Positions 1-47,176 of a stretch of DNA of 47,176 nucleotides are shown here, one piece after another. The notes beneath the pieces are model-generated. The model was given only the letters and a program-made list of their open reading frames with translations. It was not told where the DNA came from and made no database searches. The stretch lies in assembly GCF_000336935.1 (NCBI RefSeq), contig NZ_AOME01000070.1:154596-201771 (forward strand). Reading direction: 5' to 3'. This stretch comes from Halococcus salifodinae DSM 8989 (GTDB taxonomy: Archaea > Halobacteriota > Halobacteria > Halobacteriales > Halococcaceae). Each line of letters opens with the position of its first letter. The stretch's first letter is position 1. A program made the translations under genes and the position numbers.

Positions 1-290
1 CCCGCGCTGTCGCGTCTGCTCACGGGCGCTTCGTGCCCGTTCGCACGGGCCGAGGCGCTACGCGCCTCGTGGCGGCACGCGCTGAAGCCCCGTCCCTCCC
101 CGTGCGGCCGCGATAAACGCGGCCGCGGGCTTCCTTCCGCACCGCCACCACACAGCTTCTGCACCGCTCCGCACAGCACCGCCGAAGCCCTTGACTGCTC
201 GCTTCGCTCGCAGTCTCGCCCTTCATCCACCAGGGCCGCTGCCACACCGCCTCCGCACCCCCACCGCCACCCACGCGAGCGTCGAACCCT
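1..290 (+). repeat. Hairpin-rich intergenic element, copy A (partial, cut by window edge)
   Basis: No gene is visible in the first 318 bases. The stretch is a chain of small inverted repeats and carries the two blocks that define the element family: CCGCACAGCACCGCC at 169-183 and CTCGCCCTTCATCCACC at 215-231, separated by a hairpin (about 191-214). The orientation, by comparison with copy D, implies that the element starts at the 3' end of a plus-strand gene lying left of the window. The T-run block seen in copies B-E is not visible and would lie further left. Confidence 0.7.
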
Positions 291-2644: not shown

Positions 2645-3598
2645 TCACTTCGAATCGGAGTCGAGTGCGGTCGCCGGGCGGGAGTCACGCCGGCGAGCGA
2701 CGAGTGCGGCGACACCGAACACGATGACCAGCAGGAGTCCGAAGACGAACGCCAGCGTGCTCAGGCTCAGGTTCGACAGGATCCCACCACTCTCACCCGA
2801 GGCTCCGGTCGTGTTCGTCTCGTTTGCCGTGGTGCCGGGTGTCGTCGTCACACCGGTCGTGATCGTTTGCGGCGGCTCGGTCGTCGATTCCGTTGTCGTC
2901 GGCGTTTGAGTCGCCGTCGAAGTGGCTGTCGCGGTCGGTGTGGCCGTCTGCGTTGCTGTTGGCGTCGGTGTCGGCGTCGCGGTCGGTGTCGGTGTCGGCG
3001 TTGGCGTCGGTGTATCTGTTGGCGTCGGGGTTGGTGTAGGGGTCTGGGTCGTTGTCGGCGTCGGGGTTGGCGTAGGCGTTTCCGTCGTTGTAGTGGTCGT
3101 CGTTGTTGTGGTCGTGGTCGTCGGTGGTGTTTCCGAGAACGAGTCCAGATCGCGCTCCTCGCCGTTGACGAGAACGGTTACCGGGCCACCAGTGACGCTG
3201 AACGACGTAACCTCTCCAGCGAACCGGAAGCTGTCCTCGCCGCCCTCAGCGGTTGAGCCGGTGGCTGTGTTGCCGGAGGCCGTGTCGGGAATCTCCGCGT
3301 CTTCGGTGTCCGCTCCGCTGCCTGGCTCGATCCGATCGCTCACCGTGATGGTGTAGTTCGCCCGTTCGTCGCTGGTGCTTTGAACGGTGATCGTGTTCGA
3401 CGGTTCGGACGACTGTGCGTAGCCCGATCCGAGCCGGACGGCGGTCGCCCCGGAACTGCTCGACTCGATCGGCGTGCTTGCATCCACCGAGGGCTGAACT
3501 CCACCGTAGTCGGCGGTCGGGGCCGCGACGGCCGGCATCGTCGTTACTGTGAGGACGCAGACTGCAACCAGGATCACCGACGAAACGGACGAAGACAT
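2645..3598 (-). CDS. Secreted, membrane-anchored Thr-Pro repeat surface protein
   Basis: The 317-residue product starts with a signal peptide (MSSSVSSVILVAVCVLTV, likely cut after AVAA). It is followed by a small beta-rich region (about 50-150) with several N-glycosylation sequons. Then comes a long low-complexity stalk of about 100 residues made of poly-Thr and TPTPTP/TATPTA repeats, a hydrophobic helix (LSTLAFVFGLLLVIVFGVAALVA in outline) and a short RRR-containing cytoplasmic tail. This is the architecture of an anchored, probably O-glycosylated haloarchaeal surface protein; no enzymatic domain is recognised. The frame is open up to 3937, but the signal peptide fixes the start at 3598. A TATA-like TTATTTACC lies about 30-35 nt upstream on the minus strand. 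The gene is divergent from the CBS gene. Confidence 0.8.
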   Translation of the reverse strand: MSSSVSSVILVAVCVLTVTTMPAVAAPTADYGGVQPSVDASTPIESSSSGATAVRLGSGYAQSSEPSNTITVQSTSDERANYTITVSDRIEPGSGADTEDAEIPDTASGNTATGSTAEGGEDSFRFAGEVTSFSVTGGPVTVLVNGEERDLDSFSETPPTTTTTTTTTTTTTETPTPTPTPTTTQTPTPTPTPTDTPTPTPTPTPTATPTPTPTATQTATPTATATSTATQTPTTTESTTEPPQTITTGVTTTPGTTANETNTTGASGESGGILSNLSLSTLAFVFGLLLVIVFGVAALVARRRDSRPATALDSDSK

Positions 3599-3710
3599 CG
3601 TCTGCTTCGCAGTAGCGACGAACGGGTAAATAACCCTGCGGTCGTGACTCGCGGAATTCCGACCGATACGCATCGGAACAGTTAGCATCGTACGTGGAGT
3701 GGCTCCAGCC

Positions 3711-4214
3711 ATGAGCCTTCGTGCTCGTGACATCATGACGACCGACGTGAAGACAGTGCGGCCGGACGAGGACGTGAGTGACGTCCTCACCCGGCTGGCT
3801 CGTGCGTCGTTCAACGGGTTCCCGGTCGTCGACGACGAGAACCACGTCGTCGGGATCGTCACGCAGGGCGATCTCGTCGATCTCTTCCAGCCGAGCGACC
3901 GCACGCTCTGGATCCCGATCGGGTTTCCGCCGTTCATCAGCTCGATCGACTACGCGGTCGATATCTCGTGGAACGATCTCGACGTCGGGATCGATCTCGC
4001 CAAACACGCCGGCAAACCCATCCGCAGCGTGATGACCGCAGACGTCGTGACCGTCATCCCCGACGACGATCTCGACCGAGTGCTCGAACTCCTCGCCGAC
4101 GAGAACCGCGACATCAATCGTCTCCCCGTGATCGAGGGCGAGCGACTCGTCGGGATCATCGCTCGCGAGGACCTCCTGCGGACGCTTCGAGACGAGCGCG
4201 AACTCGCGTCCTGA
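3711..4214 (+). CDS. Two-CBS-domain protein
   Basis: The 167-residue protein contains two CBS motifs. The first is about residues 7-60 (ARDIMTTDVKTVRPDED ... FPVVDDENHVVGIVTQGDL) and the second about 105-160 (IRSVMTADVVTVIPDDDL ... LPVIEGERLVGIIAREDLL). An intervening segment of about 45 residues (LWIPIGFPPFISS, hydrophobic and aromatic) is a frequent insert in archaeal stand-alone CBS pairs. CBS pairs bind adenosyl ligands and gate partner proteins; no partner is adjacent, since the neighbour on the other side is a divergent surface protein. ATG 3711 is preferred to GTG 3699 because the family usually begins directly with the RARDIM motif. Confidence 0.88.
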   Translation: MSLRARDIMTTDVKTVRPDEDVSDVLTRLARASFNGFPVVDDENHVVGIVTQGDLVDLFQPSDRTLWIPIGFPPFISSIDYAVDISWNDLDVGIDLAKHAGKPIRSVMTADVVTVIPDDDLDRVLELLADENRDINRLPVIEGERLVGIIAREDLLRTLRDERELAS

Positions 4215-8639: not shown

Positions 8640-9102
8640 GCGGCTGTGGCAGCGGTGCGGTGGCGGTGCGGCGCGGTCGCGGTGCTGTCCTGGCGGATGA
8701 AGGGCGAGGCCCGCAGAACGGGCCGAGGGCTTCGGCGGTGCTGTGCGGGGCGGATGTGGGGTCTGTCCGTGCGAGCGAAGCGAGCGCGGCTCACCGCGAG
8801 TGAGCGCGAAGTCGTCCGAAACGGCGATAGCGAGGCGCTACGTGCCTCGAACCGTTGGCGCGGCTTCGCCGCGCCAAGAAGCCGTTTCGTGATGCCGAAA
8901 ATCGCGGAGCGATTTTCGGGCCACGCGAACGAGCGGGTGTTTTTCATGTCCTCGTGAGCAGCGTGGGATCGAAGGTCCCACGGGCCGTTCGCGCGGCTTC
9001 GCCGCGCGAAGACGAAGCGAACGAGGACTCGGAGCGGCTACGCCGCTCCGGTGAACGTTTTTGCAAGCGGGGGTCGCCGCAGGCGACCCTCCGCAGTAAA
9101 AA
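8640..9102 (-). repeat. Hairpin-rich intergenic element, copy B
   Basis: No gene is seen in this 460-bp interval between the matrixin-like gene and rnpB. The family blocks read on the minus strand: the T-run/hairpin unit (TAAAAA at 9097-9102, hairpin 9071-9089, GTTTTTGCAAG around 9057-9067), CCGCACAGCACCGCC as the complement of 8734-8748, and the CTCGCCCTTCAT-type block as the complement of 8692-8708. Between them stand near-perfect hairpins at 8832-8848, 8855-8877, 8895-8919, 8962-8982, 8988-9010 and 9031-9049, mostly with tiny TTCG-like or TACG loops. The T-run end directly abuts the 3' end of rnpB. Confidence 0.75.
9097..9102 (-). terminator. T-run at the 3' end of rnpB
   Basis: On the minus strand the RNase P RNA is followed immediately by TTTTTA, the usual archaeal termination signal, and then by a strong hairpin (9071-9089) that belongs to element copy B. 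Confidence 0.6.
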
Positions 9103-9568
9103 GGTTCGGCTGGGGAGGAGTAAGCCCCCTTCTGTTCGTCCCGGCATTCGGCTGAGCGTCCGCACCCCTGCCGGGCTACCGTGCGGCTCGCGCCGCGTGG
9201 TGCGGACTTGCACCGGTGAGGATTCGCCGTTCCATCGATCCTCGCCCGTCGACGCTCGGTGGGTCGACTCCCCGTCGCTTCGTCGGCCGAGTGGCCGTTT
9301 CGCTCAGGGTTCGCACGCTCGCAGGCCGGCTCGCGGGCGGTGCCCGCTCGCTCGTTCCGGGGCGCGATGCGCCCCGTGCCGCGAACGCCGAGGAGGCGGC
9401 GAAACCGCCTCCCGCACCTCATCGCTCGGGGCGAGACGTGTCGTTGCTGTTCCAGTGCCGACGGTCTCCCGTCCCGGGGTTTCCCCGGTCACCTGCCCGG
9501 CGGTGGGGGGACTTTCCTCGCTTCGCGTGGCGGACCACGCGCGCGGTGGCCAGGCTCTCCCTGCCGAT
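9103..9568 (-). ncRNA. rnpB: RNase P RNA (archaeal type A)
   Basis: Read on the minus strand this interval has the conserved RNase P cores. GAGGAAAGTCC (CR-I, about 9500-9515) follows a P2/P3-like stem. A CACTGGAACAGCAACGACAC stretch lies about 9435-9455. AGCCGAATGCCGG and then ACAGAAGGGGGCTTAC (CR-IV/CR-V, about 9120-9165) precede the 3' end. The outermost GGC-GGGAG (9565 downward) can pair with CTCCC-GCC (down to 9108) as P1. The RNA cleaves 5' leaders from pre-tRNAs with Pop5, Rpp30, Rpp21, Rpp29 and L7Ae, none of which is in the window. Exact ends are estimated from P1 pairing, with an uncertainty of about 5 nt. Spurious open frames cross this region and should not be annotated as genes. 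Confidence 0.93.
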
Positions 9569-20898: not shown

Positions 20899-20944
20899 CC
20901 TCCCCAGCCGACTCCCTCGTTCGCATCACTCGGTCATCCCTCGC
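20899..20944 (+). repeat. Second repeat family, copy G1 (right of DUF4385-like gene)
   Basis: In the 260-bp gap between convergent genes, CCTCCCCAGCCGACTCCCTC begins at 20899 and GTCATCCCTCGC lies at 20933-20944. The same two blocks recur on the opposite strand at 22132-22181, with 13 nt between the blocks here and 17 nt there. No gene is seen in 20769-21029. Confidence 0.6.
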
Positions 20945-21029
20945 GCGGTGTTGCGCGCCAACAAGCGGCGCGCAGCACGCGCCAACCGCAACCACTCAGC
21001 ACCGCCAACCCCACTCGAATCGCGTGAGA

Positions 21030-22001: not shown

Positions 22002-22340
22002 ACCGTGCGAAGCGGCCGACACGCGAATAAACGTCCCGGAACCGCGCTCTCCACTGAAGGGTGCTGTCGGTGGAAACTGCCTGTTTTGACTGCGGTGGCG
22101 CGCGGGAGTACGCCGAAGGCGCACGACTCGTGCGAGGGATGACTGAGCGAGCGTAGCGAGCGAGGGAGTCGGTTGGGGAGGTGTGTGGCCGTTGCGGTAC
22201 GGTAGCGGAGCGGTGGGCGGTTTCTCATATGCACCGGCACTCGCGGTTCGTTTCTCGTTTTGGCCTCTCTTTCCGACGTGAGCGATCAACGGAATACCGG
22301 GTGGCTCAATGCTTTTGTCTCAAGCTACCGAATCAACGGC
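22002..22340. other. Divergent intergenic region with promoter(s) and repeat copy G2
   Basis: This 339-bp gap between mvaD and the DJ-1 gene holds the mvaD TATA box near 22023-22033, repeat copy G2 (22132-22181) and GC-rich inverted repeats around 22090-22160. No convincing coding frame is seen. The frame of the DJ-1 gene is open back to 22260, but that part does not resemble its family. Confidence 0.55.
22132..22181 (-). repeat. Second repeat family, copy G2 (upstream of mvaD)
   Basis: On the minus strand this reads CCTCCCCAACCGACTCCCTC (from 22181), a 17-nt spacer with a CGCT...AGCG hairpin, then GTCATCCCTCGC (22143-22132). It matches copy G1 in inverted orientation, so the pair brackets mvaD. 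Confidence 0.6.
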
Positions 22341-29802: not shown

Positions 29803-30230
29803 CGGCGGTGCGGTCCTGGTGTCCTGCGGTCGCTCCGCGACTGCAGGGCTCAGGAGAGCTTGCTCTCCTGGTGGATGAAGGGCGAGACGCGCGAACGAGC
29901 GAAGCGAGTGAGTAGCGAACACCGGAGCACGCTTCGCGCGTGGTTCGAGGGAGCTTCGCTCCCTCGTCATCACGAAAGGCGCTTCGCGCCTTTCGAACGA
30001 CTCCGAGCTCCCGTTCGCTTCGCTCACGGGAACGAGGGGAGCGCGCGGTGAGGGCTTCGGCGGTGCTGTGCGGTTGCGAATCGATGTCCGTGCGAGCGAA
30101 GCGAGCACGGTTCGCCGCGAGCGAACGAGCGCAGCGAGTGAGCGAGCGGGTGTTTTTAGTCCAGGTTTTTGCGGGGAGGGGTGCCCGCAGCGCGCCACAG
30201 GCGCGCGAGGACACCCCTCTCCGTAAAAAA
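29803..30230 (-). repeat. Hairpin-rich intergenic element, copy C
   Basis: This gene-free interval (537 bp between convergent genes) reads on the minus strand as TTTTTTACGG (30230 down), a long hairpin of about 45 nt (30172-30223) and GCAAAAA (30171 down). CCGCACAGCACCGCC is the complement of 30059-30073 and CTCGCCCTTCATCCACC the complement of 29870-29886. Strong hairpins are at 29851-29870, 29946-29966 and 29974-29994. Compared with copies D and E, about 150 nt of extra hairpins lie between the two blocks. The T-run begins 8 nt after the korB stop codon. After the second block its sequence follows copy D for about 80 nt. Confidence 0.75.
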
Positions 30231-30238
30231 GTGGGTGC

Positions 30239-31102
30239 TTAGTAGAACTCGCGAACGAGGTCGGTGGCGTCCTCGGGTGCGCCGTCGGGGATGTCGGCCA
30301 TGTTCTCGTCGAGGCCGTGGCGTTCGTTGTACGGCTCCGACTCCTCGTCCTGGTAGATGACGCCCTGATACTCGGTGTCCTCGTCCATGATCTTCTTTTG
30401 GGCGGCGTCGCGGTCGGTCGGGTCGTGACCTTCCTCGTCGAGATCGACGATCGCATCCCGGAAGTAGTCGTAGGTGTCGACGTCGTTGAACGTGACACAC
30501 GGACTGTAGACGTTCACGAACCCGAAGCCGTCGTGTTCGACCGCCTGCTGGACGATCTCGGTGTGGCGCTGGGCGTCCGACGAGAACGACTGGGCGATGA
30601 AGCTGCCGTCGGCGGCGAGCGCGAGCGCGAGCGGGTTGACCGGAGCCTGTTTCGGCCCGTCGGGCGTCGTCGCCGTCTCGAAGTCCTCGCGCGACGTCGG
30701 CGAGGCCTGTCCCTTCGTCAGCCCGTAGATGCGGTTGTCCATCACGACGTAGGTCATGTCCATGTTTCGTCGTACTGCGTGGACGAAGTGACCAGCGCCG
30801 ATGGAGTAGCCGTCGCCGTCGCCGCCCGAGACCATGACTTCGAGGTCGGGGTTCGCGCTCTTGACGCCGATGCCGACGGGAAGTGCGCGGCCGTGGACGC
30901 CGTGGAGCGCGTAGCTGTGCATGTACGTGCCGATCTTGCCCGAGCAGCCGATTCCCGCCACGACGAACGTGTTGTCGGGGTCGTTGCCGGTGTTGGCGAG
31001 CGCCTTCATCATGCCGTTCATGGTGCCGAAGTCGCCGCAGCCGGGACACCACGTGGGCTGCTTGTCGGACTTGAAGTCGGTGAACCTGACGTCTGAACTC
31101 AT
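30239..31102 (-). CDS. korB: 2-oxoacid:ferredoxin oxidoreductase, beta subunit
   Basis: The 287-residue thiamine-diphosphate subunit has CPGCGDFG (C19, C22), C53 (IGCSGK) and C202 (YSPCVTF) as 4Fe-4S ligands. The TPP-binding motif is GGDGDGYSIGAGHF followed by MDNRIYGLTKGQ. With the alpha-gamma chain it oxidises a 2-oxoacid (2-oxoglutarate or pyruvate) to acyl-CoA and reduces ferredoxin, the archaeal replacement for the dehydrogenase complexes. The substrate cannot be decided from sequence. The start is ATG 31102, overlapping the alpha gene by ATGA. The symbol korB is used loosely for the haloarchaeal pair. Confidence 0.93.
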   Translation of the reverse strand: MSSDVRFTDFKSDKQPTWCPGCGDFGTMNGMMKALANTGNDPDNTFVVAGIGCSGKIGTYMHSYALHGVHGRALPVGIGVKSANPDLEVMVSGGDGDGYSIGAGHFVHAVRRNMDMTYVVMDNRIYGLTKGQASPTSREDFETATTPDGPKQAPVNPLALALAADGSFIAQSFSSDAQRHTEIVQQAVEHDGFGFVNVYSPCVTFNDVDTYDYFRDAIVDLDEEGHDPTDRDAAQKKIMDEDTEYQGVIYQDEESEPYNERHGLDENMADIPDGAPEDATDLVREFY

Positions 31103-33056: not shown

Positions 33057-33698
33057 ATGAAAGCGACACGAACGCGCGTGCGCGACAACCGGGCGGTCGG
33101 ACCGGAAACCATCGCGCTCGATCTCGAAACCCCCGACGGGTTCGACGCCCGGCCCGGCCAGTTCGTCAAGCTCTCGCTCGATGTCGATGGCGAGCAACGC
33201 TCGCGGTTTTACACGCTCTCTTCGTCCTCAGTGGCGGACACGTTCGAGGTCACCGTCGGTGTCGATCCCGACGGCGAGGTCGCCCCCTACCTCGCGGAGC
33301 TCGACGCCGGCGATTCGGTGACGATGGCGGGGCCGTTCGGCAGCGCCCACTACGAGGACGAACCTCGGACCACCGTCCTCGCGGGCGGTCCGGGAGTCGG
33401 GCCCGCGATCGGGATCGCCGAGCGCACGCTCGACGACGGCGGCGAGACCGCGGTGGTCTATCGCGACGACGATCCCGTCCACGAGGACCGCCTCGACGCG
33501 CTCCACGACGCTGGCGCAACCGTCCACGTCGTCGGTTCGGACGCCGATCTGACCGATCCGACGGTGGACGCACTCGCCGGTGACGAGAACGAACAGGTGT
33601 TCGTCTACGGGTTCGCTGATTTCCTCGACGCCGCAACCGACGCGCTCGCAGCCGCCGGCGGCGACCCCGACAGGGCGAAGATCGAGAACTTCGGCTAA
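33057..33698 (+). CDS. FNR-like FAD/NAD(P)-binding oxidoreductase
   Basis: The 213-residue protein is a compact ferredoxin-reductase-type flavoprotein. The FAD motif is R50-F-Y-T-L-S, the region GDSVTMAGPFG lies in the FAD domain, and the nucleotide-binding LAGGPGVGPAIGI is at 108-120. The C-terminal EQVFVYGFADFLDAA corresponds to the usual CGP-type motif but lacks its Cys. It is divergent from korAB (191 nt), and a role passing electrons between NAD(P)H and ferredoxin or flavodoxin-like partners is inferred. ATG 33057 fits the family start. Its stop is followed after 3 nt by the T-run of element copy D. Confidence 0.82.
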   Translation: MKATRTRVRDNRAVGPETIALDLETPDGFDARPGQFVKLSLDVDGEQRSRFYTLSSSSVADTFEVTVGVDPDGEVAPYLAELDAGDSVTMAGPFGSAHYEDEPRTTVLAGGPGVGPAIGIAERTLDDGGETAVVYRDDDPVHEDRLDALHDAGATVHVVGSDADLTDPTVDALAGDENEQVFVYGFADFLDAATDALAAAGGDPDRAKIENFG

Positions 33699-33701
33699 AC
33701 G

Positions 33702-33950
33702 TTTTTACTGCGGGTGATCGCGCTCGCTCCGCTCGCGCTCAACCCCTTGCAAAAACGTTTATCAAAAACTCCCGCTCGCTCACTTTGTTCGCTCGCGGTG
33801 AGATTTCTATCCTCCCCGCAACCGCACAGCACCGCCCGAGCCCTCGGCCCCACGGGCCTCGCCCTCGATCCGCCAGGAGAGCTTCGCTCTCCTGAGCCCT
33901 GCATTCGCGCCGCGAACGCAGGACGCCAGGCCCGCACCGCGATCGCTACC
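33702..33950 (+). repeat. Hairpin-rich intergenic element, copy D (most complete)
   Basis: Starting 3 nt after the FNR-like stop codon, the order of blocks is: TTTTTACTGCGG (33702-33713), a hairpin, CAACCCCTTGCAAAAACG (33740-33757), AAAAACTCCCGCTCGCTCAC (33764-33783), GTTCGCTCGCGGTGAG (33787-33802), CCGCACAGCACCGCC (33822-33836), a short hairpin, the CTCGCCCTCGATCCGCC block (33858-33874), the hairpin AGGAGAGC/GCTCTCCT (33875-33892) and a GCAGGACGCCAGG end. The same order is seen in copy E. No gene is present in 33699-34014. Confidence 0.8.
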
Positions 33951-45689: not shown

Positions 45690-45976
45690 CCGGCCGCGGC
45701 GGCGGTGCGGCCGCGGTCGCGGTGTGGCTGCGGTGGCGGTCGCGGTGTGGCTGCGGTGGCGGTCGCGGTGTGGCTGCGGTCCTCGGTGGATCGAGGGCGA
45801 GCGAGTGCAACGAGCGAGGGCTCGGGCGGTGCTGTGCGGTGGCGGTCACGGTGGCGGTTGCGGAGAGTGCCAGTGATCTCACCGCGAGCGAACGTCGTGA
45901 GCGAGCGGGAGTTTTTAGCGTAGCTTTTTGCAAGGGGTTGAGCGCGCCGAAGGCGCGCGAACCCCCGCAGTAAAAA
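45690..45976 (-). repeat. Hairpin-rich intergenic element, copy E
   Basis: On the minus strand, starting 11 nt after the TRAM-gene stop codon, the order is TTTTTACTGCGG (45976 down), hairpin GCGCGCC-TTC-GGCGCGC (about 45942-45958), CAACCCCTTGCAAAAA (45940 down), AAAAACTCCCGCTCGCTCAC (45919 down), TTCGCTCGCGGTGAGAT, CCGCACAGCACCGCC (complement of 45825-45839), hairpin, and the CTCGCCCTCGATCCACC block (complement of 45785-45801). It matches copy D block by block. The interval 45657-45987 holds no gene. Confidence 0.8.
45715..45780 (+). repeat. 23-bp tandem repeat, nearly three units, inside element copy E
   Basis: A 23-bp unit beginning GGTCGCGGTGTGGCTGCGGT is repeated at 45715-45737, 45738-45760 and 45761-45780 (last unit incomplete). 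The repeats lie at the distal end of copy E, between the CTCGCC block and the AMP-ligase-like gene. The sequence is G-rich in pairs only, so a quadruplex is not obvious. Confidence 0.8.
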
Positions 45977-45987
45977 GGTACAGGTTG

Positions 45988-46407
45988 CTACTGGTCGATG
46001 ATCTCGCCGACCGCGAAGTTCGACTTGACTTCCGTGACTTCGACCTTGACGCGCTCGCCGATCTCTGCACCGGGCACGATGATGACGTAGCCCCGCTCGA
46101 CGCGTGCGATCCCGTCGCCCTGCTTGCCGATGTCTTCGACCTCGACGTAGCGCATCTCGCCGATGTCGACCGGCGGCTGGGGCTCCGAGGACGGCCGGCT
46201 TGATCCCGAGTGCGACCCGCTCGACCCCGCACTACTCGATTCGTCGTCAGTGCGCTCGCGCGAGACGAGCGCCACGCGGTAGACGTCGCCCGCCTCGACC
46301 GAGCCGGTGTCGATCTCGCGGCGCGGTACCTCGACGGTGTAGGTGTCGTCGTCTTCCGCAGTGACCTCGGCGTTGAACAGACACAAGAGCTTGTCAGAGA
46401 TTTCCAT
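45988..46407 (-). CDS. TRAM-domain protein
   Basis: The 139-residue protein has a short N-terminal beta region (about 1-50, MEISDKLLCLFNAEVTAEDDDTYTVEVP), a Ser-rich linker (about 55-78) and a C-terminal TRAM domain (about 84-137: RYVEVEDIGKQGDGIARVERGYVIIVPGAEIGERVKVEV in outline). TRAM domains bind RNA; stand-alone haloarchaeal TRAM proteins are abundant and, in methanogens, act as RNA chaperones and cold-shock proteins. The start is ATG 46407, with a TTTACC box (46441-46446, minus strand) about 35 nt upstream. Its 3' end is followed by element copy E. Confidence 0.87.
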   Translation of the reverse strand: MEISDKLLCLFNAEVTAEDDDTYTVEVPRREIDTGSVEAGDVYRVALVSRERTDDESSSAGSSGSHSGSSRPSSEPQPPVDIGEMRYVEVEDIGKQGDGIARVERGYVIIVPGAEIGERVKVEVTEVKSNFAVGEIIDQ

Positions 46408-46930: not shown

Positions 46931-47176
46931 AAGCCCTCGGAACTGCGAGGGCAAGCCCGCGCATCCGGCCTCGCTGTGCTCGGCCGGACGCCTGACGGCG
47001 GCTCCTCGCCCTTTTCATGTCCACCGGGGGAGCAGAGCTCTCCCGAGCCCTGCCTCGTGGTCCGAAAGACGCGAAGCGTCTTTCGTCATTGCAGGAAATC
47101 GGTGATTTCCTGCAAGCAGTCAGATTCCGTCGGAATCTGACGACATCACGAAACGGCTTCTTGGCGCGGCTTCGCC
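46931..47176 (+). repeat. Hairpin-rich intergenic element, copy F (partial, cut by window end)
   Basis: No gene is seen after the small HTH gene. Directly after its stop codon comes the hairpin CCCTCG-GAACTG-CGAGGG. Then follow the CTCGCCC(TTTT)CATGTCCACC block (47005-47025), GGGGGAGCAGAGCTCTCCC, GAGCCCTGC, and a run of hairpins at about 47060-47086, 47092-47114 and 47120-47142. The last 32 nt are the inverse of part of copy B (8863-8894) with a few mismatches. The CCGCACAGCACCGCC block is not found in the visible part. Confidence 0.65.

Follow-up and report, generated by a model that had tools for sequence, protein, structure and literature searches.

What are the hairpin-rich repeats that stand at the 3' ends of genes in a 4.2 Mb Halococcus genome, and what could they do there? 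The stretch of DNA analysed (the window; 47,176 nt, G000:C70:154596-201771) holds six of them, A to F (Table 1). The original prediction had read A, D and F on the plus strand and B, C and E on the minus strand, and these assignments hold, as do the coordinates. Statistics drew on 750 kb of contigs from the same genome; three further Halococcus genomes contributed 180-400 kb apiece and four other genomes 200 kb apiece. Genes were called with a home-made codon-Markov finder and tRNAs were taken from ARAGORN; tRNAs and rnpB were counted as genes.

The sequence CCGCACAGCACCGCC is exact in five copies (A, B, C, D and E), compared with no occurrence in 20 first-order Markov resamplings of the window. 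Two core blocks had no match in reversed contigs either, and the shared blocks are therefore beyond chance. The CTCGCCCTTCATCCACC block, previously assigned to all six copies, was recovered in A to E with up to three changes (chance 0.25), but copy F has a longer relative, CTCGCCCTTTTCATGTCC, at 47005 in its place. Similarly, the common start proposed for B to E is TTTTTACTGCGG exactly in B, D and E, but a variant, TTTTTTACGGAG, in C. The elements begin 0-11 nt past the gene end, as had been noted: 5 nt after rnpB (B), about 8 nt after korB (C), 3 nt after the gene for an FAD-binding oxidoreductase domain (D), 11 nt after the TRAM gene (E) and directly after the gene preceding F. The names given to these genes (rnpB, korB, FNR-like, TRAM) proved sound, except that the gene of copy F encodes DUF7123 and an HTH was not confirmed. 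The left edge of copy A adjoins an assembly gap (N, contig position 154595); this copy lies 3' of another gene, alongside an F-like element which precedes it to the left of the window, across the N.

Several local features accompany the copies. The tail of copy E (window 45690-45780) contains about three tandem repeats, 23 nt each, of CCGCAGCCACACCGCGACCGCCA, by which the ACCGC-rich tail is expanded. Assembly Ns are found at or beside repeats at window base 1, C70 73530-74326 and C70 289489-290736. Two of these are flanked by short duplicated stretches, and some composite copies may thus be scaffold joins. A low-complexity array of the GTCGGTGTCGGC type, with spacings of mostly 12 nt, occupies window 2880-3125 and overlaps a minus-strand ORF (2645-3937).

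Table 1. Repeat copies, their upstream genes and the parts of copy D (window coordinates)
Feature	Position	Strand	Remarks
Copy A	1..290	+	core at 169-234
Copy B	8640..9102	-	3' of rnpB; nested palindromes inserted
rnpB (archaeal RNase P RNA), preceding copy B	9108..9565	-	Rfam RF00373, 102.5 bits
Copy C	29803..30230	-	3' of korB; slot 3 enlarged
korB (2-oxoacid:ferredoxin oxidoreductase beta)	30239..31102	-	TIGR02177, 310.7 bits (cut-off 261.9)
FAD-binding oxidoreductase domain gene, copy D at 3' end	33078..33698	+	gene call; Pfam FAD_binding_6, E 1.9e-11
Copy D, complete element (putative terminator module and hairpin tail)	33702..33950	+	orthologous copy in G008, 80% identical
Putative terminator module of copy D	33702..33768	+	T5 33702-33706, hairpin 1, A5 33751-33755, spacer CGTTTATC 33756-33763, A5 33764-33768
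Hairpin 2 of copy D (CCCGCTCGCTC...GCTCGCGG)	33769..33800	+	limits approximate; precedes T5-N8-T5 on minus strand
Halococcus-specific core of copy D	33822..33877	+	CCGCACAGCACCGCC-CGAG-CCCT-(slot-3 hairpin)-CGCC-CTCG-ATCC; CGAG/CTCG arms pair
Tail hairpins of copy D	33878..33940	+	GGAGAGC..GCTCTCC, CCTGC..GCAGG; end is CCCGCACCGC
Copy E	45690..45976	-	3' of TRAM gene; tail enlarged by 23-nt tandem repeats
TRAM-domain gene, upstream of copy E	45988..46407	-	Pfam TRAM, E 1.9e-15
Copy F, divergent subfamily, GAAAG...CTTTTC arms, lacking the T5 module	46931..47176	+	directly after DUF7123 gene

The repeat family is real and occurs throughout the genome, with at least 50 places found by BLAST (40 of 169 candidates were scored). 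In the 750 kb, clusters of blocks were detected at 25 places; one lies inside a coding sequence, probably by chance, leaving 24 copies. An 'AA' match at C70:67625 was rejected as a chance A-rich match within an unrelated insertion. A gene 3' end is present on the 5' side of 19 of these 24 copies, which point away from it with a T5 usually 3-11 nt past the stop codon, and about five copies have no preceding gene 3' end. Between genes on the same strand, 15 copies point away from the end of the upstream gene and three point the opposite way (two-sided binomial p ~0.008). The upstream genes include rnpB, tRNA genes and CDSs. A comparison independent of how the copies were detected gave the same position: a T5 no more than 15 nt from the stop was present at 17 of 21 element-bearing gene ends vs 5 of 271 others (Fisher p 1e-19). 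The T5 is therefore part of the element and is missing from most gene ends in this genome. This rarity also rules out a T-tract that was already in place as an insertion target. The fixed polarity at gene ends, first noticed in the window, extends well past it, and random placement relative to gene ends was not seen.

The element consists of two parts, a T5-hairpin-A5-N8-A5 module and a tail formed by a chain of hairpins. Read away from the gene, the module is NNA-YY-T5-(RCT hairpin-1 GC)-A5-(8-nt spacer YY-TNN-RYN)-A5-C, followed by hairpin 2 (CCGCTCGCTC...GCTCGCGG) and a linker. The spacer is exactly 8 nt long in 111 of 127 instances when shorter and longer spacers are allowed. In 97 of 116 distinct instances the spacer contains a triplet complementary to the one that precedes T5 (shuffles: mean 28, max 41), with a caveat that related sequences are not independent and that covariation in palindromes can also come from template switching. 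Eight kinds of pairs were found: CCA/TGG, GTA/TAC, GAA/TTC, GCA/TGC, GGA/TCC, CGA/TCG, AAA/TTT and ACA/TGT. The covariation persists when families other than that of Halococcus are taken alone (35/47; shuffles: mean 9, max 19). A CCGC...GCGG hairpin past the second A-tract is present in 53 of 69 modules from the Halococcus family; outside it this second hairpin is weaker, with a stem in 28 of 46 modules vs 17 of 46 shuffled.

In the same direction the tail reads CCGCACAGCACCGCC, GAAG or CGAG, CCCT, the slot-3 hairpin, CGCC, CTTC or CTCG, ATCC, further hairpins and CCGCACCGC repeats. The arms around slot 3 are GAAG with TTC in 46 cases, CGAG with TCG in 19 and mixed in two. In a gapless alignment of 12 slot sequences 95.8% of the stem cells are paired, with double changes at 10 of 12 pairs, and the pairing is lost when the partner is slid by one column. 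Nested palindromes of the form GTGGTTCGA(stem)TCGTCATCACGAA(stem)TTCGAACGAC, in which the linkers are constant and the stems hypervariable, sit inside element hairpins in copy B (window 8800-9000) and copy C (29880-30050), and are also found in other haloarchaeal families (L059, L160).

The two parts differ in their spread. A strict module pattern was detected in 99 of 243 genomes of the order, with 9-29 strict modules per Halococcus genome, and the reversed control pattern in none. Among 30 modules fetched from other families of the order, T5 lies 4-11 nt past a gene end in 18, and 24 of the 28 with a known upstream neighbour face a gene 3' end. The tail core gave 75 strict matches in all eight Halococcus genomes searched and none in 81 others. 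Among named genomes the exact core pattern was found in only H. morrhuae, H. thailandensis and the MAG SW_9_67_24. Plasmid and phage collections contained no match to the tail. A search of the window with Rfam 15 at gathering thresholds returned RNaseP_arch only, and the element itself matched no known RNA family. A second intergenic repeat, CACGCCTCCCCAACCGATTCC-hairpin-TCATCCCTCGCACGAG-hairpin-GCGCGCCACC, is present in several haloarchaeal genomes (window 20899-20947 and 22133-22181; G000:C51 49354-49765 and 259184-259518; L047, L058). Two intergenic regions of C51 have it immediately after the putative terminator module.

Comparison of orthologous sites indicates that copies stay in place. 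All ten Halococcus genomes carry the element at the korB end, in G006 as a degenerate copy, and so does G010, which belongs to a different genus; the first module can also be recognised in two members of a third genus, G011 and G013. The gene preceding copy D carries the element in seven genomes, and in the three where it is absent the downstream neighbour is different. With gene adjacency conserved, this genome and G008 share four of five element sites, the fifth being a remnant, and this genome and G002 share three of three. Overall, among the three species compared, eight sites of this genome retain their neighbours; seven of them have an element in G008 or G002 as well, and the eighth has a remnant. 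One site is specific to G002, although its counterpart is not a clean empty site.

Within these stable sites the hairpins change while the linkers are kept. For example, slot 3 of copy D was replaced outright relative to G008, and hairpin 1 at C70:216554 relative to G002. The 75 strict cores contain 63 distinct slot sequences. Identical slots were found in three of five nearby pairs (<5 kb, all in G002) vs 5 of 474 distant within-genome pairs (p 3e-5), which we read as exchange between copies, probably by gene conversion. An unusual variant of hairpin 1, GCTACGAGACGGCG...CGTCTCGGCAT, occurs in two genera, at the G002 site orthologous to C70:216554 and at the korB end of G017 (L162). This common variant suggests that modules are shared across genera.

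The hairpins also show a strand bias. In C70, odd-length palindromes with C-GNA-G or C-TNC-G tips make up 60 of 77 in noncoding DNA vs 8 of 44 in coding DNA, the bias being weaker in other genomes. In the elements, the tips are TNC on the sense strand and GNA on the bottom strand (slot 3: 30 vs 4; hairpin 1: 57 vs 9). Internal mismatches of two nucleotides are TC/TC in 26 of 27 cases, which corresponds to tandem G.A on the bottom strand. The predicted fold of copy D is more stable for the bottom strand (-122.7 kcal/mol, z -4.05) than for the sense strand (-89.5, z -3.15). RNA UNCG tetraloops were ruled out as the tips: the palindromes have odd-length triloops and those with a loop of four are few. 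In single-stranded DNA, mini-hairpins with a GNA triloop and a closing G-C pair have extraordinary stability (PMC4686876). The bearer of the hairpin features could be RNA or single-stranded DNA.

On balance, the element is probably a polar two-way transcription terminator or insulator at gene 3' ends, joined in Halococcus to a specific tail that evolves by exchange of hairpins between copies. In Haloferax volcanii T5-C stretches terminate ~95% of transcripts (PMC7237163), and the T5 at the stop codon should therefore end the RNA of the gene there. RNA polymerase on the gene strand would meet T5 ~3-11 nt past the stop and release. Hairpin 2 and T5-N8-T5 together are shaped like an intrinsic terminator with a second T-tract, which is why action in both directions is proposed: opposing polymerases would meet the GC-rich hairpin 2, then T5-N8-T5, and halt before antisense entry into the gene. 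Between the tracts a long stem (NNA-YY-T5...A5-YY-TNN) capped by the variable hairpin would form, and the tail would contribute extra hairpins spaced by conserved linkers. Copies would remain at their own gene end while recombination or gene conversion among dispersed copies swaps the slot hairpins. The five or so copies with no preceding gene 3' end, the weaker second hairpin outside the Halococcus family and the lack of a T5 module in copy F speak against this reading, as does the tail, for which termination does not account. Should the RNA end at T5, the mRNA would lack the remainder of the element, and covariation across T5 would have to act on read-through RNA, bottom-strand RNA or DNA. 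The original prediction had offered a functional 3' extension (termination, RNA stability or processing) or a mobile element. Termination fits best, with T5 coming first and at the gene end, rnpB and tRNA ends included; a role in RNA stability or processing is a poorer fit, given that such a T5 would end the transcript ahead of the hairpins. The order-wide first module and the use of hairpins as exchangeable slots were not part of that prediction.

Known terminators resemble the module in part. Archaeal T-stretch terminators such as T5C of Haloferax volcanii also lie just downstream of genes, with hairpins reported near some termination sites (PMC7237163), and the T-stretch directly past gene 3' ends is found here too, with like placement in other families. 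In the element, by contrast, the T5 forms one side of a covarying stem, A5-N8-A5 and a second hairpin come after it, polarity is fixed and the copies make up a repeat family. The module may work like an archaeal T-stretch terminator; its additions are polarity, the covarying stem and a spacer whose length hardly varies. Bacterial intrinsic or bidirectional terminators share the GC hairpin followed by T-tracts seen on the bottom strand, but in the element a spacing of exactly 8 nt separates two T-tracts, and the gene strand has its T-tract ahead of the hairpin.

Alternatively, the repeat could be a small non-autonomous mobile element (REP/BIME- or PATE-like) that is moved by a single-strand transposase, targets gene ends and uses its hairpins as recognition structures. 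The high copy number, the mosaic and nested palindromes, the presence of the module across many genera and the noncoding excess of tips of the ultrastable mini-hairpin class (PMC4686876) would all suit such an element. REP/BIME, the mosaic extragenic palindromes of bacteria (PMC2817692), are likewise dispersed, intergenic composites of hairpins with conserved linkers, but the Halococcus element is a much longer modular unit, with stems that are hypervariable in fixed slots and a T5 whose distance from the stop is fixed. The nearest haloarchaeal elements are the PATEs of Haloquadratum, palindrome-associated IS605 derivatives which, like the SMR elements of the same genus, are non-coding, palindrome-rich and nested in one another (PMC3119063). 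Resemblance to IS605 ends and strain-specific insertions characterise PATEs (PMC3119063), and neither was seen for the Halococcus element at four TnpA loci or among the three species compared. No matching description of a Halococcus or haloarchaeal repeat was found in the open literature searched, and within that literature the earlier statement that no such family had been described stands. We consider the mobile reading unlikely. Of the eight sites with conserved neighbours seven are occupied across species, and comparison of the three species revealed no clean empty site, target duplication or insertion polymorphism. Furthermore, the four Y1 transposase loci of this genome are not flanked by the same palindromes and do not contain the element blocks (the only matches are <=33 nt, E >=0.008), which leaves no linked RAYT-like transposase in this genome and removes its Y1 transposases as the driver, and plasmids and phages in the collections searched do not carry it.

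The hairpin features also allow for a polar gene-end element that acts through single-stranded bottom-strand hairpins, with their C-GNA-G tips and tandem G.A, bound by a dedicated haloarchaeal factor. The hairpins would then be exchangeable cassettes in slots fixed by constant linkers, combining termination with DNA-level marking of boundaries between genes; this is distinctly unlikely. The better bottom-strand fold of copy D, the TNC tips on the sense strand and the tandem G.A could instead reflect a structured RNA encoded on the bottom strand, an antisense-side small RNA whose terminator, hairpin 2 with T5-N8-T5, would explain the position at gene ends. Such an RNA is very unlikely, as copies diverge to the right of the tail with no common start signal evident by inspection, modules outside Halococcus have no tail core and an Rfam match is absent. 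Another possibility is that the repeats have no function: template switching at imperfect palindromes would maintain their palindromic form and gene conversion would homogenise them. Template-switch repair can yield covarying stems without selection, the identical slots of neighbouring copies point to active conversion, and nested palindromes are inserted in stems. Even so, this neutral origin appears highly improbable, since neither the polarity nor the fixed distance from the stop would be expected from it, and nor would the exact 8-nt spacer or the conservation of the module across families.

The termination signals of this order have mostly been described as plain T-stretches. If the module terminates transcription, it would give this archaeal order a searchable, structure-supported class of terminators and would predict both ends of an insulated interval. 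The C-GNA-G tips and the strand bias make selection on RNA vs single-stranded DNA testable. For hairpin turnover, the Halococcus tail amounts to a natural experiment: site and linkers are constant while the hairpins differ, and structure becomes separable from sequence.
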